Shown here piece by piece: positions 128 to 38,987 of a stretch of 45,467 nucleotides of DNA; the stretch's first letter is position 1, and every line of letters starts with the position of its first letter. Origin of the DNA: a virus; the IMG/VR virus record IMGVR_UViG_3300049460_000029, positions 1 to 45,467 of that record; one strand, 5' to 3'. The notes under the pieces were generated by a model, which did no database searches, had not been told where the DNA came from, and was given only the letters and a program-made list of their open reading frames with translations. The translations under genes and the position numbers were made by a program.

Positions 128-2414
128 CTTTGCCCGTGGCGAGGCCATCGACAATGGTCGCATCATCAAGACTGGAAGCTGGCATGTTGTCACTCCAGAC
201 GATCCGAACTACATGTCTTCATGGCTGGACGGTCTGAACAAGCAGTTCCGCCAGGATGACCTGTTCCGTCTGGTGGCTGAAGATCCCACCCTGGCCAAGG
301 CCAAGGCTTGGGTTCGTACGCCTGCTGGCAAGTATCACATGAGCCAGCTCGGACCGAGGGCCCGCGACACCGATGGCACCATTCAGGCCATCAAGCAGAC
401 CCTTGACCAGTATCTCCCTGAGGGCACCGCCCTTCAGGGCAAACTAGCCAAGGGCGAGGAGATCCTTGAACAGGATCTCCGTAAGGCTGTCGCCCAGGAG
501 GACTTCCCTCCGGTCCACGGTGAGGAGCTGAAGGCCCTTACCGCAATGTTCAGCAAGCAGACTGCTGCGCGCATTGTGGACGACAAGATCGCTGAAGGGT
601 TCCGTCGACTGTCGACTCTTCCTAACGATGTGATGGCAAGGCAGCCGATCTACCTGCGAGCCCAGGAGGCTCGCATGAGGCAGATGGTCGACCAGGAGCT
701 GTCATTCCGCCGAGAGAGTGGACTGTCTGACGATCTGGACATGCAGGATCTTCAGAAGCTTCTCAACAAGTCTGACAAGCTGGCGAGGAAGGATATCAGT
801 CAGGTCGTCTACGACCCGACCAGGACCACGGCTACTGAGGCGCTTCGATTCATGTCTCCGTTCCTTTCGGCTCATATGGATGGGCTACAGCGTTGGGGTG
901 GACTGATTGCTGAGAAGCCTCAGTTCCTCGGAACCGCAGCCAAGATCTACAATGCTCCGGTTGCTGCTGGGCTTGTCACTGACCAGTACGGTCGTCCTGT
1001 CGATCAATACGGAAACGTGGAGACCGAAGACGAGAGCGGCAAGAAGAGCAAGGCGTTCGTTCCACTGGAGAAGCGCATGCTTACCCTTCGCATGCCCGGA
1101 GAGACGAAGAACATCAAGGGAGTCGGCCAGGTGAATACCGGTGGCGTCAGGCTGAGCCTGAGCGCCATCAACACTATCCTTCCTGGCGATCCATGGTTCA
1201 GCCCCGGCACCGGCCCGTTCGTTCAGCTTGCTGGCACGAACATTGCCAAGGCCGCTCCCGGTGTTGGCGACTTCCTTCAGTGGACGAAGATCATGCCTTA
1301 CGGTCCGGGGGAAGGTACCGGCGTCAAGGATGCCTTCACTCCCGCCTACATGAAGGACGCCTGGGCAGCATTCGATGCTGCCGCTGGTGGTGGTACTGCT
1401 CAGGCATACCAGGACAACGTTCTGGCTGAGTGGCAGCGCCAGAGCGCCGAGCACGCCAATGGTGGGGATGCTCCGGACTGGAAGACCGTCCAGAAGAACG
1501 CGAAGCAGTTCACGTTCCTGGAAGCCCTTACGAACTGGATCTCTCCCGCTCGAACGAAGGAGACTCCGCTTACGAAGACGCCCTACCAGTTCTTCGTAGA
1601 CCAGTACAAGACGATGCAGCAGACGGACCCGAAGAACGCCAAGGCCAACTTCTTCCAGAAGTACGGCGAGGACTACTTCGCCTTCACCGCATCCATGAGC
1701 AAGAGTATCGGAGTTCAGTCCAACCTGTCAGCTCAGCACACTGCCGAGATGTATGGTGACCTGATTGCTGAGGACCCTGACCTTGCATCGCTGATCGTTG
1801 GCGATGTCTACAACCAGGGCAAGTTCTCGAACTCGGTCTACCGGAAGCAGATGGACGGCTTGCTGAATGGCATCAAGATGAGGGAGAAGATCACTCCGCT
1901 CGAAGCCATCAAGCAGAATCAGAAGGATCTCGGCTGGGAACAGTACAACAAGTACATCGGAGCCATCGATGCCGCGACGATCCGGAGCGGCTTCAAGTCC
2001 TACAACCAGAAGGGAGCTGAGCCTTTCGCTCAGCTCAAGACCACCCTCACCACCGCCATGAGTGAAATGTACCCTGAGTGGTATGTGGACTACGGTACGG
2101 TGAACATGGTCAAGATTCCTCAGAGGATCAACGCCATGAAGAAGCTTGTCTCTGATGAGCGCATCATGTCAGATCCGATGAGAGCCCAGGAGCTTGTTCC
2201 TCTAGCCGCCTACATTCAGCAGCGTGAGCTACTGAAGTCTCAACTGGCGGAGCGGGGAGGAAGTCAGCTGAGCTTCGGACTGGACGGAACTCCCACTGGA
2301 GCCAATGCCGATATCGGTATGCAGCTCCGCACTCTGCAACTCTATCTCGTAAACAACTCCCTCGGATTCTCTGACATCTTCCATCGCTACCTTGAGAGTG
2401 ACGACCTCAGTTAG
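3..2414 (+). CDS. Giant internal virion protein, C-terminal part (continues from 45467)
   Basis: This is the C-terminal 804 or so residues of a 1744-aa protein that starts at 42520 and crosses the circle junction. No start codon belongs here; the GTG at 24 is internal. The segment is hydrophilic and probably mostly helical, with no catalytic motif I recognise. The gene sits downstream of the portal and directly upstream of two murein-hydrolase virion proteins. That is the position and size of an internal or ejection protein of short-tailed phages (compare T7 gp16 in role, not in sequence). A tape-measure role is less likely because the usual tail genes are missing. It ends nine bases before the next gene. 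Confidence 0.75.
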   Translation, partial: GRRLGEGVIEHEGREIPQAFSKEWENPVPRDQITSAHAMQTIFARGEAIDNGRIIKTGSWHVVTPDDPNYMSSWLDGLNKQFRQDDLFRLVAEDPTLAKAKAWVRTPAGKYHMSQLGPRARDTDGTIQAIKQTLDQYLPEGTALQGKLAKGEEILEQDLRKAVAQEDFPPVHGEELKALTAMFSKQTAARIVDDKIAEGFRRLSTLPNDVMARQPIYLRAQEARMRQMVDQELSFRRESGLSDDLDMQDLQKLLNKSDKLARKDISQVVYDPTRTTATEALRFMSPFLSAHMDGLQRWGGLIAEKPQFLGTAAKIYNAPVAAGLVTDQYGRPVDQYGNVETEDESGKKSKAFVPLEKRMLTLRMPGETKNIKGVGQVNTGGVRLSLSAINTILPGDPWFSPGTGPFVQLAGTNIAKAAPGVGDFLQWTKIMPYGPGEGTGVKDAFTPAYMKDAWAAFDAAAGGGTAQAYQDNVLAEWQRQSAEHANGGDAPDWKTVQKNAKQFTFLEALTNWISPARTKETPLTKTPYQFFVDQYKTMQQTDPKNAKANFFQKYGEDYFAFTASMSKSIGVQSNLSAQHTAEMYGDLIAEDPDLASLIVGDVYNQGKFSNSVYRKQMDGLLNGIKMREKITPLEAIKQNQKDLGWEQYNKYIGAIDAATIRSGFKSYNQKGAEPFAQLKTTLTTAMSEMYPEWYVDYGTVNMVKIPQRINAMKKLVSDERIMSDPMRAQELVPLAAYIQQRELLKSQLAERGGSQLSFGLDGTPTGANADIGMQLRTLQLYLVNNSLGFSDIFHRYLESDDLS

Positions 2415-23375: not shown

Positions 23376-23545
23376 GCCTCCGGAACCCTTGTCATACGGA
23401 TCAGGGAGGACTTGGGGTATGCGCTGGCGTCGAAGACGATAAAGCCGTCCGGCCGGACGGACGCCTGGCGATTCAGGAACTCCACGAACGTCTCGTCAGT
23501 GATGACGATCTCTGTGCCGCCCTCAAACTCCATGAGAATCTTCAC
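23372..23545 (-). CDS. Hypothetical protein, 57 aa
   Basis: MKILMEFEGGTEIVITDETFVEF... is an alternating strand/helix protein. GTG 23545 overlaps the lipoprotein stop and the end overlaps the next GTG, all as GTGA. Confidence 0.55.
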   Translation of the reverse strand: MKILMEFEGGTEIVITDETFVEFLNRQASVRPDGFIVFDASAYPKSSLIRMTRVPEA

Positions 23546-23976
23546 GGCTGAGACGCCGGAAGGTCGTCCGTGCTGCCACGGAAGTCGAAGTCGGAGAGAA
23601 TGGACTGAGGCTTGAAGGTGACCCGGTAGTGGTTGGCGCTCGCCTTGACAGGCTCGCCCTGCTCCACGAAGTAGGAGACGTTATCGGACAGGCCGAGGAA
23701 GTGCTTCTTGTACTCGTTCTTGCCGGTCTTGCAGATCACCTCAAGCTGGTTGCCCTCGTCCGTGATGGCGCAGACGCCAACGATCTCCATGAGGTACTTG
23801 TCTGTGATGCCGTTGAACATCACGATGCGACGGTTCACCTCGAAGTTATCGGCCGCCTTAGACAGGTTCTCCGACGCCACGTCGGCGTCGTCATCCATGC
23901 ATGCCGTCAGTCCGAAAGCCATGAAGACCCCCAGCCCGACAGCAAGAGCGGTCGTTGCCTTGCGATTGTACTTCAT
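23542..23976 (-). CDS. Phage-encoded lipoprotein, 144 aa
   Basis: A positively charged N-terminus, a hydrophobic helix and the lipobox LTAC (residues 23-26) predict a lipid-anchored protein on the outer face of the membrane. The mature part starts with Asp/Ala-rich linker residues, then a beta domain (RRIVMFNGITDKYLMEIVG, VICKTG, YKKHFLGLSDN). Similar beta-sandwich lipoproteins are common in actinophages and some were given recombination-related names. With no integrase here, a surface role such as superinfection exclusion is more plausible. AAGAGGAGAG precedes ATG 23976. Confidence 0.8.
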   Translation of the reverse strand: MKYNRKATTALAVGLGVFMAFGLTACMDDDADVASENLSKAADNFEVNRRIVMFNGITDKYLMEIVGVCAITDEGNQLEVICKTGKNEYKKHFLGLSDNVSYFVEQGEPVKASANHYRVTFKPQSILSDFDFRGSTDDLPASQP

Positions 23977-24003
23977 GCTCTCTCCTCTTGGTTGGGTTGT
24001 ACG

Positions 24004-24142
24004 TGGGGAGGGGTGGAGTCGAACCACCCTGCGCGGGCTGCCGCCCTATTGGGGTCACCTCGGTCACTCGCAGGAATTGAACCTGCCCCAGTCGCCAGAC
24101 TCGTGGCCGGAATCGAACCGGCTAACGCTCGCCAATCTCCCC
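24004..24142 (-). other. tRNA-like array with three T-arm hairpins (unresolved)
   Basis: On the - strand three canonical T-arms occur in 117 bp: 24106-24122 (loop TTCGATT), 24070-24086 (TTCAATT) and 24012-24028 (TTCGACT). Each has a 5-bp stem. They are far too close together for three full tRNAs. GGGGAGA at the 5' end (24142-24136) can pair with CCTCCCC (24011-24005), leaving an A like a discriminator base. Further small stems (AGTC/GACT, GCGG/CCGC) look like variable arms. I could not fold it into normal cloverleaves. It may be decayed tRNAs, intron-containing tRNA, or a tRNA-mimic RNA. Confidence 0.5.
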
Positions 24143-25395: not shown

Positions 25396-25546
25396 ATACG
25401 TAACTCTCCTCGTTCAGTTGGCATTCAATGCAGACCCATTCGGCCTCTTCGGCATCCCAGATCATCTCGCCATGGACGTCGCAGTCGGGACCTTCGGAGT
25501 ACTTGTCGTTCCAGTAATCTCGATCATCACTAGAACTCGAATCCAT
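25388..25546 (-). CDS. Zinc-ribbon-like small protein, 52 aa
   Basis: DCDVHGEMI and WVCIECQL give Cys-x-x-His and CxxC pairs. It starts MDSSSSDDRDYW at ATG 25546, inside the 3' end of the exonuclease gene. Confidence 0.55.
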   Translation of the reverse strand: MDSSSSDDRDYWNDKYSEGPDCDVHGEMIWDAEEAEWVCIECQLNEESYVYG

Positions 25547-26357
25547 CCTCATGACTCCGATCATAGTAGTTAGCACGGGCCGACAGCGGCCCGGCGTTGA
25601 CTCGGCAGTTGTCCTGATGGAAGCAGAACCTACAGCCGAAGCCGTGATTGGTCTTGTAGATCTTCTTGGTCATCGCCTCGTAGGCTTCCTGATACTTGGC
25701 GCCCACTTCCGTGGGCGACACCGAGGAGAGGTCTACGTGCCGAGTGGAAGATTCGTAAGAGGGAGAGATCATAACGTAACGACCCTTGAAGGGGAAGCCG
25801 TCATACGTCTTGCTCCCTTCGGTCATCAGCAATGCTGCATACGTCTCAAGCTGGAAGTTGTCAGGCTTGGTACCGCCAGTCTTCCAATCCCAAATCACCG
25901 GACCCTTCTTCTTGTGCTCACCAATGATGTCTATGTAAGCAACGACCGGGACGTCAAGTCCCGGGAGTCTGCCACTTGCATCATACTCCACTTCCCACAC
26001 ATCTATACTTTCAAGCTCTACAAGAGCAGCTTCGAAGCATTCCTGAACGTGCCTCAGGGCACGTTCCTCAACGTATGGATCACCGGCTGGCCCTGAGGCC
26101 AGCCACTTGGAAGCGTCTGGCTCAATCTCCATCTGTGCAGATACCAGCGGGTAGAAGAACTGCTCAGCCCCCTTCGGGGCTTCGATGGCGGGGGATAGGT
26201 GGGCTTCGATCATGTCATGTACAGCCCTGCCGATAGGTATGTACCACGTCTGAATCTCTTCAGCCCGCCGAACCTTACCAAGGTACCAGGACCGAGGGCA
26301 GGATTTGTATGTCCTGTACTGTGAGTAACTGAGATGCTCTATTTGGTACGAGTCCAT
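25530..26357 (-). CDS. Cas4/RecB-like PD-(D/E)XK exonuclease with Fe-S cysteines
   Basis: A 275-aa nuclease of the PDDEXK_1 type. Cys20 (SCPRSW) near the N-terminus and Cys242, Cys245 and Cys251 near the C-terminus form the Cas4/AddB-type iron-sulfur site. The nuclease core is YIDIIGEH and VIWDWKTGG (Asp...Asp-x-Lys), followed by QLETYAALL. It would resect DNA ends in recombination-dependent replication. ATG 26357 (MDSYQIEHLSYSQ) is preferred to the longer frame because the family begins with the LSYSQ segment. Confidence 0.85.
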   Translation of the reverse strand: MDSYQIEHLSYSQYRTYKSCPRSWYLGKVRRAEEIQTWYIPIGRAVHDMIEAHLSPAIEAPKGAEQFFYPLVSAQMEIEPDASKWLASGPAGDPYVEERALRHVQECFEAALVELESIDVWEVEYDASGRLPGLDVPVVAYIDIIGEHKKKGPVIWDWKTGGTKPDNFQLETYAALLMTEGSKTYDGFPFKGRYVMISPSYESSTRHVDLSSVSPTEVGAKYQEAYEAMTKKIYKTNHGFGCRFCFHQDNCRVNAGPLSARANYYDRSHEDGFEF

Positions 26358-26364
26358 GCAGACA

Positions 26365-26805
26365 TTATACCACCCTGTCTGCAACCTTAAGGTACTGTTC
26401 GCTGTCACACATCAGGCAGTATTCAACCCTCTTGCCAGCGTTGAATTTGAAGCCTCTGTGACGGTCGCCTTGATGGCGACCGGATGTGCAACGATACTCC
26501 AAGTAGTCGCTCACGTCCACAGTAGGGACCCTCTTGGGTCCCGGTCTACTGACTAGATAGTCAGGGGTGTGACCACCCCTGACAGTCCAGAACAGGTCTA
26601 CAGGAGAGGCTTGCTCAAGGCAAGCCTCAGTAACAGGGCAACTGAAGCATATGGTCTTAGCCTCTTGAACCTTCCTGTCGTTGTAAGCCCTCACAGTGTT
26701 GGTATTCGTGATATGGGAGACCTCCGGGTCTCCCATTCTGGAGACTGTGAACTTCTCTATAGGAAGGCTAGCGCATGAAGCGCTAGCTGTCCAGTGCTTT
26801 GTCAT
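26365..26805 (-). CDS. WhiB-like iron-sulfur transcription regulator with extra C-terminal zinc ribbon
   Basis: The four WhiB cysteines are present (Cys11, Cys53, Cys56, Cys62: TICFSCPVTEAC), followed by FWTVRGGHTP, equivalent to the family's G[VI]WGG turn. Wbl proteins bind a 4Fe-4S cluster and the principal sigma factor, and phage members can block host WhiB. Past residue 100 there is a basic extension with a second Cys set (YRCTSGRHQG, YCLMCDSEQ) that is not part of a normal Wbl protein. AAGGA precedes ATG 26805. It is the first gene of the - strand operon, so it is expressed early. Confidence 0.88.
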   Translation of the reverse strand: MTKHWTASASCASLPIEKFTVSRMGDPEVSHITNTNTVRAYNDRKVQEAKTICFSCPVTEACLEQASPVDLFWTVRGGHTPDYLVSRPGPKRVPTVDVSDYLEYRCTSGRHQGDRHRGFKFNAGKRVEYCLMCDSEQYLKVADRVV

Positions 26806-27207
26806 TCGTTCCTTCCCACCCGCCATGGATGGCCCCGAAGGGCCATCCTAGATCTATATAGTCTATACATGTACGGAAGGGCCCCGTAGGGCCCTTCCTA
26901 TACTATACAATCTATAGACTTTGTACACTCTACGATCTACCTCCCTTGGGGTCGGTAGATCTATAACTCTAACTCTCTTAACTACCTAAAGACTTAGTGT
27001 AGCAGAGACCTTGGAAGTTTCCTGATAGTTCGAAGGGTTCAGGGTGTGACCTCAGTCACACCCCTTTGACCTGCACCTTTCCCAGCGTTTCCTAACCTGC
27101 GTACCGGCCTCCCTTAAGGTCGGCCTTACCAGGTCAAGCTATCTAAGGAAACACTGGGGCTTCCAGAAAAATTCCCGCATCCCCTGGGGGTTATTTTGTG
27201 AGGTAGG
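26806..27207. promoter_or_regulatory. Regulatory region upstream of the WhiB/replication operon
   Basis: No gene is seen in these 402 bp. Hairpins: 26827-26848 (9-bp stem, CGAA loop) directly before the WhiB ribosome site, and 26875-26898 (10-bp stem, CGTA loop). Between and beyond them is an AT-rich stretch with TAGATCTA, TCTATAGA and several TATA-like boxes, where the - strand promoter must lie. 27042-27063 is a 9-bp inverted repeat (GGGTGTGAC/GTCACACCC). 27081-27093 and 27146-27158 are 12/13 inverted copies flanking further GGCC-rich dyads. Confidence 0.6.
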
Positions 27208-27393
27208 TCACAGGTTCCGTACGTGGCTAGCCGTGACCTTGAACTCCAAAGCGAGAGCCTTGGGGCTCTCGCCTTCATCCTTGCGTCGCTTGATCTCGCT
27301 GCGCTGCTCCGGAGTCAGCTTCGCCCTTTTGCTGGCGAAGCCAGCAGGACCGAAGTCCTGGCCGTACGGCTGGAAGCTTCTCATGCTGGACAT
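27208..27393 (-). CDS. Small HTH DNA-binding protein, 61 aa
   Basis: The second half is a Hin/transposase-type helix-turn-helix: LTPEQRSEIKRRKDEGES, then ALALEFKVTASHVRNL. The N-terminus is Phe/Gly-rich. It is the promoter-distal gene of a two-gene unit with the SsgA-like protein, with adjoining stop and start. It could bind one of the palindromic sites in this genome. No other phage repressor candidate is visible. Confidence 0.7.
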   Translation of the reverse strand: MSSMRSFQPYGQDFGPAGFASKRAKLTPEQRSEIKRRKDEGESPKALALEFKVTASHVRNL

Positions 27394-27761
27394 TAGTTGC
27401 CTTCCAGTAGTGCGGCGATGGTGTCGTCCCACTCGTACGACTCCCGCGAGGGCGGGAGGAGGGTCAGGGATGCCTCCAGGAAGCTCTGTACGGCCCCCAG
27501 GGGCAGCAGGACCATGCCCTCGCCCTCTGGGCTGCACAGGAAAATGCTGAGCCCGGAGAAGACCACGTGCAGCTTCACGTCACCCTCTCCGGCGAAGCCC
27601 TCCTCGAACACCTCGATCAGGAGATCTCGGGAGAAGGACCAGACGGGGGGGTTGGGCTCGGTGTGGAAGGTGAACTGCACCGCTGCGGGGTTGTCCTTCC
27701 GGTACTCCATGTCGACCGGAAAAGGAATTCCCTGCGTGATGCCGATGGTTTCGACGATCAT
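27393..27761 (-). CDS. SsgA-like (SALP) cell division/sporulation protein
   Basis: This 122-aa protein matches the SsgA/SsgB family pattern: VQFTFHTEPNPPVWSFSRDL, then GEGDVKLH, then LCSPEGEGMVLLP and a helix VQSFLEASL. In Streptomyces SsgB positions FtsZ at sporulation septa and SsgA recruits SsgB. The family is confined to morphologically complex actinomycetes. The length is normal for a complete single domain. A phage copy might block or redirect septation. AGGAGG lies before ATG 27761, and the gene is divergent from 27791 with only 29 bp between the start codons. The family call is by eye but the motifs are clear. Confidence 0.82.
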   Translation of the reverse strand: MIVETIGITQGIPFPVDMEYRKDNPAAVQFTFHTEPNPPVWSFSRDLLIEVFEEGFAGEGDVKLHVVFSGLSIFLCSPEGEGMVLLPLGAVQSFLEASLTLLPPSRESYEWDDTIAALLEGN

Positions 27762-27774
27762 TGGTCCTCCTGTG

Positions 27775-27783
27775 TGCTACAAT
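27775..27783 (+). promoter_or_regulatory. Extended -10 promoter for the phosphoesterase gene (near-leaderless)
   Basis: TGCTACAAT is a TGn-extended -10 element. Transcription would begin around 27790, directly at or next to ATG 27791, so the mRNA is probably leaderless. No ribosome-binding site is seen before that ATG, in agreement. Confidence 0.55.
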
Positions 27784-27790
27784 GTGGGGT

Positions 27791-28558
27791 ATGACAACGA
27801 AAACCACGCTGATTGTGCCAGACATCCAGTATCCCTACCATGATGCACTTGCGCTGAAGAAGCTGATCAGCGTGGCTGCCGACCTCAAGCCGGACACGAT
27901 CGTCCAGATCGGGGACGGTATCGACTTCCCTCAGGTATCCCAGTGGAGCAAGGGAACGGCGGGAGAGTATGCGGAGACGCTACAGGATCACATAGACGGC
28001 TTTGTGTCGTCTGTGCTTGAGCCGCTTCGAGAAGCGGTTCCCAGCGCAAGCGTCACTTGGCTGGAAGGGAATCACGATCTTCGCCTTCAGGACTTCGTCA
28101 AGAAGTACGGGGCGCCACTGCGCCCCCTCCGGGCACTGGAGATGCAGAACCTGTTCGACCTGGAGCGCCTCAACATCGAGTATACCCGAGGGCCGAAGCG
28201 TATTGCGACCAACACCTACGCGATCCATGGTCACGAGTCTGGCGGATACTGTGCCAGTGCCAGCGCTTGGGATGCGAAGTTCGCCAAGCGATACGGTAGC
28301 GACAAGAACTTTGTCTTCGGACATACTCACCAGCCCTTCCTTATCACCCGCTCCTTCGGTTACGACGGGAAGGTTTCCCCGCGCTTCACTATGAACGCGG
28401 GAAGTATTATGGACCCTGCCGCCGCTACATACGTCAAAGACGGGGCGGTTTCGTGGGTGATGTCGTTCGCGCTGCTGCGCGACGACGGTAAGCGTGTCCA
28501 CCCTGAGCTGATCACGATGGTGGACCGAGGCTTCTACTTGAATGGAACCAAGTACTAA
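27791..28558 (+). CDS. Metallophosphoesterase (calcineurin-like)
   Basis: A 255-aa enzyme with all binuclear metal motifs: DIQYPYHD, GDGIDF, EGNHDLR, IHGHES and GHTHQP. The fold hydrolyses phosphomono- or diesters; phage members may act on nucleic-acid ends, cyclic nucleotides or proteins. It is the first gene of a short + strand unit with the sigma-like gene, within a region otherwise transcribed leftward. ATG 27791 follows an extended -10 element by 7 bp. Confidence 0.85.
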   Translation: MTTKTTLIVPDIQYPYHDALALKKLISVAADLKPDTIVQIGDGIDFPQVSQWSKGTAGEYAETLQDHIDGFVSSVLEPLREAVPSASVTWLEGNHDLRLQDFVKKYGAPLRPLRALEMQNLFDLERLNIEYTRGPKRIATNTYAIHGHESGGYCASASAWDAKFAKRYGSDKNFVFGHTHQPFLITRSFGYDGKVSPRFTMNAGSIMDPAAATYVKDGAVSWVMSFALLRDDGKRVHPELITMVDRGFYLNGTKY

Positions 28559-28559
28559 G

Positions 28560-29252
28560 ATGCTGAACTACGAGGCACTCACTCCGATGGTGAAGAAGGC
28601 TGCCCGTGCTGCCGGATCTTCCTTCCCCAAGCACTACGATCCGGCAGACACGGAACAGGCCATCTGGGTCTGGGTTCTTGAGAAGAGGAACACGGTCGGG
28701 AACATTGTTCGCGACACGGAGCAGAGGGACAATGAAGTACTGAAGCCCCTCTATGACATGATGCTCAAGGTGGCCACCACGTTTCTGCGTGGTGAGGACC
28801 GAGCCATCTATGGTTACTCCGAAGATGACGTGTTCCATTATTCCACAGACCTTATCAAGGAGATCCTCGAAGTGATCTTCACTCACGAGGACTGGCAGAG
28901 TTTCGCATCATCCTACGATGCGATGCCTAAGCAGAAAGTGGACCCCGCGACAGCGGGGAACAATCTCGCATCCTATGTGGATGTGAGCCAGGCGGTGGGA
29001 ACGCTGGCCGACAGGCAGTACAACGCCCTGGTGTGGCGGTACAAGTACCACTACACCCTTGAGAACGTCGGTAGCGAGCTGGGTATGACCAAGGAAGGTG
29101 CCAGACAGCTCCTGGACGGGGCCGTGAGGGCTGTTCAGCGTGCCCTTGGGTCCAAGGACCGGAGCGACCTCCGGAACGTCTCAGACGGGCATCTACGGCC
29201 TTCCACTACGGCTCAGGCCAAAGCCATGAGCGAGTCGCAGTACGAGGGATAG
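28560..29252 (+). CDS. Sigma-factor-like transcription protein, 230 aa
   Basis: The C-terminal part resembles sigma region 4: LADRQYNALVWRYKYHYTLENVGSELGM, then TKEGARQLL and VRAVQRAL, a helix-turn-helix that would contact a -35 element. The N-terminal part is helical (DTEQAIWVWVLEKRN) and could be a diverged region 2. It may redirect host RNA polymerase to phage promoters. The start is ATG 28560, overlapping the upstream stop region, or ATG 28542. A terminator follows. Confidence 0.7.
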   Translation: MLNYEALTPMVKKAARAAGSSFPKHYDPADTEQAIWVWVLEKRNTVGNIVRDTEQRDNEVLKPLYDMMLKVATTFLRGEDRAIYGYSEDDVFHYSTDLIKEILEVIFTHEDWQSFASSYDAMPKQKVDPATAGNNLASYVDVSQAVGTLADRQYNALVWRYKYHYTLENVGSELGMTKEGARQLLDGAVRAVQRALGSKDRSDLRNVSDGHLRPSTTAQAKAMSESQYEG

Positions 29253-29284: not shown

Positions 29285-29452
29285 TCAGATCACTTGTACA
29301 TAGCGGTTGTCGATGACGTGAATCTCGTCATCATCGTCGGCCACGATGGACACTTGGCCGACCGGAGCGTCACACTGGAGGATTAGATCAGCCTCGAAGT
29401 CTTCGTAGCCAGGGGCCCCCGTTACGCGAACACGGGAATAGTTAACTACCAT
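29285..29452 (-). CDS. Small beta protein, 55 aa
   Basis: MVVNYSRVRVTGAPGYEDFEADLIL... with an acidic DDDDE turn. ATG 29452 overlaps the stop of the gene upstream. Unknown family. Confidence 0.55.
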   Translation of the reverse strand: MVVNYSRVRVTGAPGYEDFEADLILQCDAPVGQVSIVADDDDEIHVIDNRYVQVI

Positions 29453-29994
29453 TCGTCATCCTTTACGTTCGACTCTCGCCTGTAGTGCCGTTCCATGTTC
29501 TCGTTGGAGTCCACTTGGTGGACTCCTGTTTTCATGTTCCGCAGGAGAACGCACTTGTCACCAGTGGCAACGACCTCGAAGGTGGCTTGTCGTTGAGACT
29601 GTGAGACCTGATCCCCCACGTTCCAGTCAGGGTTGTTGTTCGGAGCACCGCTCTTGGCGGTGCTCTCTTCTGCATACTCCCAGAACTGGTCCTTCTGATC
29701 CGTGAACCAGCCATACCGGGCGGTGGCGGAGACCAGCCATAGCTTGGTGTCCTGAGCCCATGCCACATGCCACACCCCGCTGAGGGCGGGGTGCTTGAAG
29801 GCGGTGCCGACGTGAGGCAGCAGGATGGGTCTCTTGAGGCTGGACTTCAACAGCTTGTGGAAACCGTCCACCACGATGGAAGCCACCTCTTCGAGAGGCT
29901 TGCCCTCCGTGGCGTCCGAGTCCAGGAACTCGGCAACCTTCTCCTTCTGAGTCTTCGTACTTGGTATCGTCGCGGTCTCCTTTCGTGTACCCAC
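29446..29994 (-). CDS. Hypothetical protein, up to 182 aa
   Basis: A mixed alpha/beta protein: KVAEFLDSDATEGK, then HVAWAQDTKLWLVSATARYGWF, then a C-terminal beta part (QATFEVVATGDKCVLL). The conventional start is GTG 29994, but that codon has no ribosome site and abuts a hairpin (30000-30019). AAAGGAG lies inside the frame at 29983-29977, so translation may begin at ATA 29967 or ACG 29970. No family recognised. Confidence 0.6.
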   Translation of the reverse strand: MGTRKETATIPSTKTQKEKVAEFLDSDATEGKPLEEVASIVVDGFHKLLKSSLKRPILLPHVGTAFKHPALSGVWHVAWAQDTKLWLVSATARYGWFTDQKDQFWEYAEESTAKSGAPNNNPDWNVGDQVSQSQRQATFEVVATGDKCVLLRNMKTGVHQVDSNENMERHYRRESNVKDDEW

Positions 29995-37031: not shown

Positions 37032-38987
37032 ATGGCGACAGTCTACATAGACCCTGAGACTGGTGAGGTGAGTTCTGCCAAGATCCGGAAGAAGCCTGGC
37101 AGGAAGGTCAACCGGACAGCTCAGCAGAAGAAGGACACCGTCCTCTCCTACATGAAGCAGGGGCTGACTGTCGTCGAGGCTTGCAGGGACTTGGGGATCA
37201 CTCCTCAGACTGTTCAGTACTACCGTAGTTCCGACATGAGCTTCAAGGCGGACTATGATCGAGTGAAGCTGATGTCCAACCCCGACACGAGCCGTGAGGC
37301 TCGGGAGGGTATGCCGGACTTTCCGGACTTCTGCATGGAGTACCTGGACACTCAGTTGTTCAACCATCAGCTTCAGTGGTACGACGTCCTTGAGGGACGT
37401 CCTCCGAGGAACCTTCACGAGACTCAGGTCTACAAGCCGGGAGACCCTGGCATGATCATCGTGAACACTCCTCCGGAGCATGCGAAGTCTACGACCATCA
37501 CGGTCAACTACACAACTTGGCGGATCTGCCAAGATCCGAACATCCGCATCATCATCGTGTCCCAGACGCAGGAGATGGCCAAGAGGTTCCTGAGGGCGAT
37601 CAAGGATCGCCTGGCGGGAGCCAACCACGCCTACAGGAAGCTTCAGATGGACTTTGCTCCTGATGGCGGCTTCGATGCCAACTCTGCCTCCTGGACCGCC
37701 GACAGCATCTACGTGAACGCTGAAGCTCGTGACAGTGGTGAGGCTACACCCACCGTCCAGGCTCTTGGCATGAACGGCCAGATCTACGGCAACCGTGCAG
37801 ACCTGATCATCCTTGATGACACCGTGACGGGGAAGAACGCCCATGAGTTCGAGAAGCAGATCGACTGGATTCAGCGAGAGGTCATCAACCGACTCACCTA
37901 CCCAGGGGGTACGCTTCTACTCGTTGGAACACGGCTCGCTCCTGTGGAACTCTATTCAGAGATCCAGAAGCCTGAGTGGTATGGACAGGACGAAGAGTCC
38001 CCTTGGACCTATCTCACCCAGCCCGCCGTGCTTGAGTTCGCAGACTCACCCGACGACTGGACTGTTCTCGCACCCTTCACCAACCGACCCCCGGTATCGC
38101 TGGGAGCAAGACGACTGGTGGAAGCAGGGCCAGACGGACTTTACCCCTGGCACTCAGGAAAGTCTCTAGCGAGACGGCGAGCCACCAGCTCGCCCCAGAA
38201 CTGGAAGATGGTCTACCAGCAGGAGCAGGTGGTTGAGGATGCGATCTTCCCAGCGAACAAAGTTGCGGCTTCTATCGACGGAATGCGAGCTGCGGGTCTC
38301 ATGTCCCCTGGGGCACCGGGACATAGAGCGCACGGCATGGACGGCCTGTATGTGGTCGGAGGATTTGACCCGGCTATCACCGGACATGCTGCTGCCGTCG
38401 TTCTTGGTGTGGATCGAATGTCCGGAGTGCGGCACGTCCTCGACGTCTGGACCGCTCCGAATCAGAAGCCTGACGACCTCTTCGACAAGCTGAAGGACTG
38501 GACGGCCAAGTACCACATGCACGAGTGGGTCATCGAGAAGAACGCGATGAACTTGATGGTGACCCAGAACCGTGACCTGAGGAACTTCCTCGGAAGCCGT
38601 GGCACTTTGCTCAAGGAGCACTTTACCGGCAACAACAAGAACGACATCGACTTCGGTGTCGCCTCCATGTCGATGCTCTTCGATGGAGCCCTTGAGGGCA
38701 AGGGTCTGATCAGGCTTCCTTCCCGCTCTCAGAACGAGGGCGTCAAAGCCCTCGTTGAACAGCTCGTCGTCTGGTTCCCTCAGAGCAAGGCCAAGCAGGA
38801 TACTGTGATGGCTCTCTGGTTTGCGGAGACCAGGGCGAGGGAGCTTGTCAATGACATCGAGACCGTGTTCCATCTCGGCAACTCTTATCAGTCCCCCAGG
38901 GACAAGGAACGAACCCTTACGATCGACCTCGATTACCTGAGCCAGGGAATGGCTGCTGATGGGGTCCTACAGAACTGGAGTAACTGA
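37032..38987 (+). CDS. terL: Terminase large subunit with fused N-terminal HTH
   Basis: A 651-aa packaging motor. The ATPase has a variant Walker A NTPPEHAKST (145-154) and Walker B LIILDD (259-264) after the strand IRIIIVSQTQ. The RNase H-like nuclease starts near residue 445 (GGFDPAITGHAAA) and continues through EKNAMN. Residues 30-80 form a helix-turn-helix (TVVEACRDLGITPQTVQYY), unusual for a large subunit; no separate small terminase gene is visible nearby. AAGGAG lies 11 bp before the ATG. The stop overlaps the endolysin ATG (TGATG). Confidence 0.92.
   Translation: MATVYIDPETGEVSSAKIRKKPGRKVNRTAQQKKDTVLSYMKQGLTVVEACRDLGITPQTVQYYRSSDMSFKADYDRVKLMSNPDTSREAREGMPDFPDFCMEYLDTQLFNHQLQWYDVLEGRPPRNLHETQVYKPGDPGMIIVNTPPEHAKSTTITVNYTTWRICQDPNIRIIIVSQTQEMAKRFLRAIKDRLAGANHAYRKLQMDFAPDGGFDANSASWTADSIYVNAEARDSGEATPTVQALGMNGQIYGNRADLIILDDTVTGKNAHEFEKQIDWIQREVINRLTYPGGTLLLVGTRLAPVELYSEIQKPEWYGQDEESPWTYLTQPAVLEFADSPDDWTVLAPFTNRPPVSLGARRLVEAGPDGLYPWHSGKSLARRRATSSPQNWKMVYQQEQVVEDAIFPANKVAASIDGMRAAGLMSPGAPGHRAHGMDGLYVVGGFDPAITGHAAAVVLGVDRMSGVRHVLDVWTAPNQKPDDLFDKLKDWTAKYHMHEWVIEKNAMNLMVTQNRDLRNFLGSRGTLLKEHFTGNNKNDIDFGVASMSMLFDGALEGKGLIRLPSRSQNEGVKALVEQLVVWFPQSKAKQDTVMALWFAETRARELVNDIETVFHLGNSYQSPRDKERTLTIDLDYLSQGMAADGVLQNWSN

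Follow-up and report, generated by a model that had tools for sequence, protein, structure and literature searches.

Septum placement in Streptomyces is controlled positively via SsgB, without Min or Noc, and SsgB recruits FtsZ for sporulation septa. Within a genus, SsgB differs by one residue at most (PMC8061694). Sporulation was blocked in the SsgB mutants Y35H, V37A, L57P, and L97P, and a tilted septum was formed with V115G, G118V, and E120G, for which SsgB–SsgB binding was kept and SsgA binding dropped (PMC8061694). Infection of S. venezuelae by the phage Alderaan represses the whi genes and ssgB at an early stage (PMC10117723), indicating that repression of the sporulation pathway is something phage infection does. 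The viral WhiB of mycobacteriophage TM4 (WhiBTM4) is cited in PMC7650747 as hindering septation. A phage SsgA-like protein (SALP) is not new as such: the ssgA gene carried by Dagobah was reported in 2020 (PMC7650747), and a 2023 paper refers to phage ssgA as well (PMC10117723). No functional study of a phage SALP was found in the open-access literature; subscription papers and preprints were outside the scope of this search.

Here, a SALP gene was analyzed on a viral stretch of 45,467 nt (the window), which is the whole of the record IMGVR_UViG_3300049460_000029. Its product is denoted vSALP (virus-specific SsgA-like protein). The Dagobah SsgA family regulator (HUN42_00031) is a phage-encoded SALP of similar size (PMC7650747), but it shares only 30–36% identity with vSALP and comes from another phage type with other gene neighbors, without a WhiB gene beside it. 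WhiBTM4 and other phage WhiB-like regulators likewise bear on septation in the host, and a gene of this type adjoins that of vSALP; WhiBTM4 is a transcription factor, whereas vSALP belongs to a divisome-type protein family. New here are a virus-only branch of SALPs, the position in a WhiB operon, and changes at key sites; no description of this branch, its two phage groups, or the key-site changes was found in the open-access literature. We propose, with a probability of roughly 45%, that vSALP is an interfering SsgB analogue, which would bind SsgB, SsgA, or FtsZ and disturb septation or sporulation.

The SALP locus and its virus

The window carries a 127-base terminal repeat, from which the genome of about 45.3 kb is probably complete. 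Its terminase, endolysin, and portal genes are arranged in the Beephvirinae order, and these genes share ~72% DNA identity with Streptomyces phages, Zeigle and Immanuel3 among them. By these sequence measures the virus is related to the Beephvirinae, which are virulent Streptomyces podoviruses, and from this kinship we infer a Streptomyces-type host. Abafar, a podovirus and an isolated member, lacks lysogeny genes, and a virulent lifestyle is predicted for it (PMC11536984). Integrase and resolvase domains were sought in the window as a test for lysogeny, and none were found. The region 23542–24027 (minus strand) matches PHROG 478, "recombination directionality factor", with an E-value of 5e-52, yet without such a domain in the window this name may misfit the function in these virulent phages. 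The features around the SALP gene are as follows.

25530–26408, minus strand: Cas4/RecB-like exonuclease (PF12705, E 3e-22), downstream and conserved in Beephvirinae
26365–26826 (likely start 26805), minus strand: WhiB-like regulator (PF02467), at the same position in Beephvirinae
27208–27393, minus strand: small helix-turn-helix (HTH) protein of 61 aa, whose start codon overlaps the SALP stop by one base (TAATG)
27393–27761, minus strand: virus-type SsgA-like protein (SALP) of 122 aa, assigned from PF04686, 6SLC, the AlphaFold2 (AF2) model, Foldseek/VIA, and the tree
27762–27790: divergent intergenic region of 29 bp between the SALP and phosphatase start codons
27791–28558, plus strand: metallophosphoesterase (PHROG 221, E 3.7e-72 on the slightly longer ORF 27761–28555)
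28542–29252, plus strand: sigma-factor-like protein with a region 4 HTH (PF04545, E 1.3e-6; PHROG 354, E 9.2e-21)

The SALP reading frame is intact, comprising an ATG with an AGGAGG ribosome-binding site (RBS) just 5' of it, 122 codons, and a TAA stop. It is the first gene of a short operon and is followed by the HTH gene and then by the WhiB-like gene. The 61-aa HTH protein resembles the products of the same-slot HTH genes of FlowerPower (gp64) and Stella (gp69), and the longer ORF of this gene gave CENP-B_N/HTH_38 matches. The WhiB-like gene that the preliminary description had placed near the SALP gene is real; it matched PF02467 with an E-value of 1.6e-7 and 32.2 bits (cut-off, 23.6), and four cysteines are kept in its translation as C-x2-C-x5-C plus an upstream Cys. 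A single transcript covering the SALP and WhiB genes is considered possible, and not more than this, because nearly 400 bp holding perfect hairpins lie between the HTH and WhiB genes. Two hairpins, each perfect over 9–10 bp, lie in the leader 5' of the WhiB gene (26827–26898), where CTATA motifs recur; read on the minus strand, the first is C(UUCG)G, and both are possibly terminator or regulatory elements. A scan of the SALP region for consensus sigma-70 promoters found none.

The 29-bp divergent region was compared with those of the metagenomic relative L016 (IMG/VR 3300030512_000004) and seven isolated Beephvirinae. It holds the SALP RBS on the minus strand, and TACAAT lies directly 5' of the phosphatase ATG on the plus strand. 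A TATACT-like box occurs directly 5' of the metallophosphoesterase ATG in most of the Beephvirinae loci examined, which suggests a leaderless transcript. The metallophosphoesterase gene itself is a conserved, divergently oriented neighbor of the SALP gene, with 65–83% identity in relatives. Its product also shares 35–36% identity with the metallophosphoesterases of numerous mycobacteriophages; in the Barriga record (KR997929), the protein bears the label excisionase.

The seven isolated Beephvirinae share a gene order of exonuclease, WhiB, and a small HTH/zinc-ribbon-like gene, then the divergent metallophosphoesterase and sigma-like genes, and none of the seven carries a SALP at this locus. 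In the window, the SALP gene is an insertion flanked by the small HTH gene and the divergent start region; 29 bp separate it from the phosphatase start, the same distance as in several SALP-less relatives. L016 possesses a SALP in the same slot with nearly equal spacing and RBS, 39% identical to vSALP. When the phosphatase was used as a query, 62 loci were obtained, including L016 (recovered as L190) and the Beephvirinae-like contig L203, in which a much-diverged SALP (784–1164, minus strand) lies between phosphatase and WhiB. Three small unidentified genes separate this very divergent SALP from the phosphatase of L203. Since L016 and L203 carry a SALP in the WhiB-operon slot and the seven isolates do not, this gene is regarded as an uncommon but recurrent passenger of the Beephvirinae WhiB operon. 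The phage setting claimed beforehand is supported, and the gene is conserved in another genome of this type.

Between the window and L016, the identity is 39% for SALP and 36% for WhiB, compared with 83% for the phosphatase, 63% for the exonuclease, and 59% for the sigma-like protein. Such joint fast change of SALP and WhiB would fit host-facing proteins. A 182-aa protein encoded at 29446–29994 (minus strand; PHROG 12091) is 38% identical between the two genomes, diverging as fast as SALP and WhiB.

Family membership and predicted structure

vSALP matched the Pfam SsgA family (PF04686) with an E-value of 1.2e-14 and 54.4 bits (cut-off, 25), its residues 15–107 being aligned to profile positions 2–98 of 98. 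The same model gave no match in any of 14 control genomes, so that the match is far beyond chance. A phmmer search of the PDB detected the SsgB proteins of S. coelicolor (6SLC, E 9.4e-12) and Thermobifida fusca (3CM1, E 1.6e-7); the identity was 37% over 106 residues for 6SLC and ranged over 33–37% for SsgB. The PDB name of 6SLC, "SsgA", was set aside as a family label, since PMC8061694 describes this entry as S. coelicolor SsgB and its sequence equals those of Streptomyces SsgB orthologues. The size of 122 aa fits the range of approximately 110–150 aa of small single-domain SALPs. PHROGs and PADLOC returned no family for vSALP.

In NCBIfam, the sole match was SsgD (NF052496), whose 39.3 bits are far below the equivalog cut-off of 185. 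As cellular SsgD–SsgF act on the spore wall and on autolytic separation (PMC8061694), vSALP might, like SsgC–SsgG, direct peptidoglycan enzymes in the hypha or ready the wall for lysis without touching FtsZ. However, its nearest characterized relative by both sequence and structure is SsgB, and its gene sits away from the endolysin gene at 38987, in the arm for replication and regulation. We consider a cell-wall role distinctly unlikely.

For structure prediction, vSALP and relatives from the fetched loci only (alignment A5, 12 rows) were used as the AF2 input. The model obtained showed a pLDDT of 89.6 and a pTM of 0.75, is uncertain over the ~20 C-terminal residues, and forms a seven-strand barrel covered by helices, the SsgB-type fold. 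SsgB entries ranked first when this model was examined with Foldseek (6SLC, TM 0.80, rmsd 1.3), and a second aligner (VIA) gave a Z of 17.4 for 6SLC (rmsd 1.7 over 107 residues) and 16.1 for 3CM1. The top matches in a viral structure library were proteins of the Streptomyces phages TunaTartare and BillNye. With the AF2 model and the SsgB matches from the two aligners, membership of vSALP in the SsgA/SsgB family can be taken as settled as far as computation allows. The preliminary description had assigned the protein to this family and proposed an HMM search and a structure comparison with SsgB as checks; both agree with the assignment, which is borne out by the profile, the predicted fold, and the core residues. 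It had also seen the family pattern over the full length, which holds for approximately residues 9–112 and does not extend to the poorly modeled C-terminal rest.

The next fold matches were MRP1/2 and Whirly proteins with Z of about 7–9.9, and other folds also scored 9.9 or less. Whirly, PUR-alpha, and PH-like folds were rejected for vSALP, as their scores are far below that of SsgB. A Whirly-like fold put to use in replication or transcription of the phage as a binder of ssDNA or RNA would agree with these secondary matches (Z about 7.3–9.9; 7–8.5 for Whirly ssDNA-binding proteins) and with the location of the gene among DNA-metabolism genes, but the SsgB match is far stronger, and vSALP, with a pI of 4.1 and a net charge of −14, is very acidic, unlike most nucleic-acid binders. 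Such a function is thus judged very unlikely.

Relatives and phylogeny

A tblastn search against phage records yielded 40 records, none of which exceeded 60% identity to vSALP. Thirty-eight of them represent 29 Streptomyces phages, and the other two are Dagobah and one bacterial-looking contig. The "Bacteriophage sp." match (MT838510; L009, from a fecal sample) was set aside because its neighbors look bacterial. Every taxonomically assigned case opened among the Streptomyces phages belonged to the Loccivirinae. In the annotated Loccivirinae opened, an Lsr2-like gene follows the SALP gene at a distance of a few genes, and the SALP is annotated "hypothetical protein"; the BillNye copy is named SsgA family in UniProt. 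No match was obtained when viral contigs were scanned with vSALP alone, and the scan that yielded relatives used a profile of five sequences.

The Loccivirinae SALPs (Patelgo, Belfort, TunaTartare, Circinus/BillNye, and others) are 30–42% identical to vSALP and fall into the same virus-only branch; a short loop is common to both, and most have Ala at the Y35 site (SsgB numbering), as vSALP does. They differ at the E120 site, which is Asp or Ala in the Loccivirinae and Glu in vSALP. Their phages, with genomes of 121–131 kb, are unrelated to the window virus, and their SALP gene is near the Lsr2-like gene instead of in a WhiB operon.

In a tree of 72 SALPs, vSALP, the L016 protein, and the Loccivirinae proteins formed one branch without cellular members (support 97/90). 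After removal of six long rows, this branch was supported at 99/99 and appeared in 100% of the bootstraps, with vSALP and L016 as sisters (97/83). AU tests gave p values of 0.15 for placing vSALP and L016 with host SsgB and 0.36 for placing them with an Actinophytocola SALP, so that neither was excluded with this short protein and alignment. The virus-only branch is therefore well supported by the sequence data but, given the short alignment and the alternatives left by the AU tests, short of beyond doubt. The IMG/VR contigs L022, L023, and L024, which may be phage or host DNA, carry SALPs outside this branch. Dagobah, on a long branch, and L023 were placed elsewhere in the tree, which suggests that phages have probably acquired SALPs more than once.

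A dN/dS of 0.04–0.30 within the Loccivirinae SALPs indicates purifying selection and hence maintenance of the protein in these phages. This bears on the idea that the gene is a recent host-gene capture without a settled role, heading to decay. Its absence from the seven isolated Beephvirinae would agree with such a capture, as would its third-position GC content (GC3) of 86%, which exceeds the 59–79% of its neighbors and hints at a GC-rich origin. However, the frame is intact with an RBS, an orthologue 39% identical occupies the same slot in L016, and the virus-only branch that includes the protein is under purifying selection. A decaying capture is accordingly the least probable explanation considered here, and a highly improbable one.

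Key residues and a proposed role in host division

vSALP is similar to S. coelicolor SsgB in family, predicted fold, and the core residues W51, R55, L57, L58, G67, G69, D70, and E120, and it also keeps V71 and L88. All residues of the family core (P34, W51, R55, L58, G67, G69, and V71), each found in 50–53 of 53 cellular SALPs, are present. The site of Y35 is Ala in vSALP and L016, and in 10 of the 13 viral-branch members in all, compared with none of the 53 cellular SALPs, which mostly have Tyr, Leu, or Phe there; Tyr is kept in three Loccivirinae SALPs. The G118 site is Ser in vSALP and Gln in L016, while Gly is present in 48 of the 53 cellular proteins. Further changes relative to SsgB are L96 to Met and L97 to Val. 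The N-terminus is shorter by about 9 residues, and the loop after D70–V71 is shorter by about 5. An SsgB orthologue would be near-identical within its genus and carry all function-critical residues; the phage-borne vSALP, with 33–37% identity and changes at Y35, G118, L96, and L97, is not an orthologue. With its core kept and Y35 and G118 changed, the viral SALP is seen in the alignment to retain the scaffold and depart at two function-linked sites. As many cellular SALPs have Leu or Phe at the Y35 site, an Ala at this position need not abolish function.

The retained R55–E120 pair, hydrophobic core, and predicted SsgB-type fold could also speak for a protein acting like SsgA or SsgB itself, which would add or speed septation and break the hyphae into compartments, allowing dispersal of progeny or of infected fragments. 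According to the title of reference 41 in PMC7650747, SsgA stimulates septum formation in cells. The changes at Y35 and G118 stand against such positive mimicry. Moreover, mature mycelium is less susceptible to phages, host development limiting infection (PMC10117723), so extra septation would seem harmful to the phage. We regard this positive action as unlikely.

The interfering SsgB analogue is favored by the kept core, the altered Y35 and G118 sites, purifying selection, the WhiB neighbor, and the virulent phage type. During infection, vSALP would use the conserved SALP surface to bind host SsgB, SsgA, or FtsZ and, as sites needed by SsgB are altered, would be unable to do the full job of SsgB. 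It may thereby compete with SsgB, so that sporulation-type Z-rings are stopped or misplaced and the hypha is held in a growing, phage-permissive state. At the level of transcription, the adjoining viral WhiB may also affect this pathway. The presence of vSALP in a virus-only branch of the SsgB family suggests that SALP-carrying phages probably manipulate the division of their host cells. Two observations count against interference. Most Beephvirinae do without the gene. In addition, aerial hyphae were enhanced at the edges of plaques both for Dagobah, whose SALP is of other origin, and for the five further phages tested alongside it (PMC10117723), which reveals no SALP-specific effect. Keeping the multigenomic hypha open and entering spores, both offered in the preliminary description, are two guesses among several. 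A wider scenario appears doubtful, in which a phage-evolved SsgA/SsgB branch, passed among unrelated phages, would supply dominant-interfering SsgB analogues that block sporulation-type division, while the viral WhiB would shut the same pathway transcriptionally.

Viral SsgB analogues with natural changes at mutant-defined SsgB sites could serve as probes for the FtsZ-, SsgA-, and SsgB-binding surfaces of SALPs. Prevention by phages of host escape into spores also becomes testable, as approximately 29 isolated phages carry a SALP, mostly as "hypothetical protein". A remote phage SALP may additionally be present in Streptomyces phage Ibantik, whose protein A0A2U8UNC9 in BFVD was missed by tblastn and gave a structure match at 21% identity with an E-value of 8e-7.
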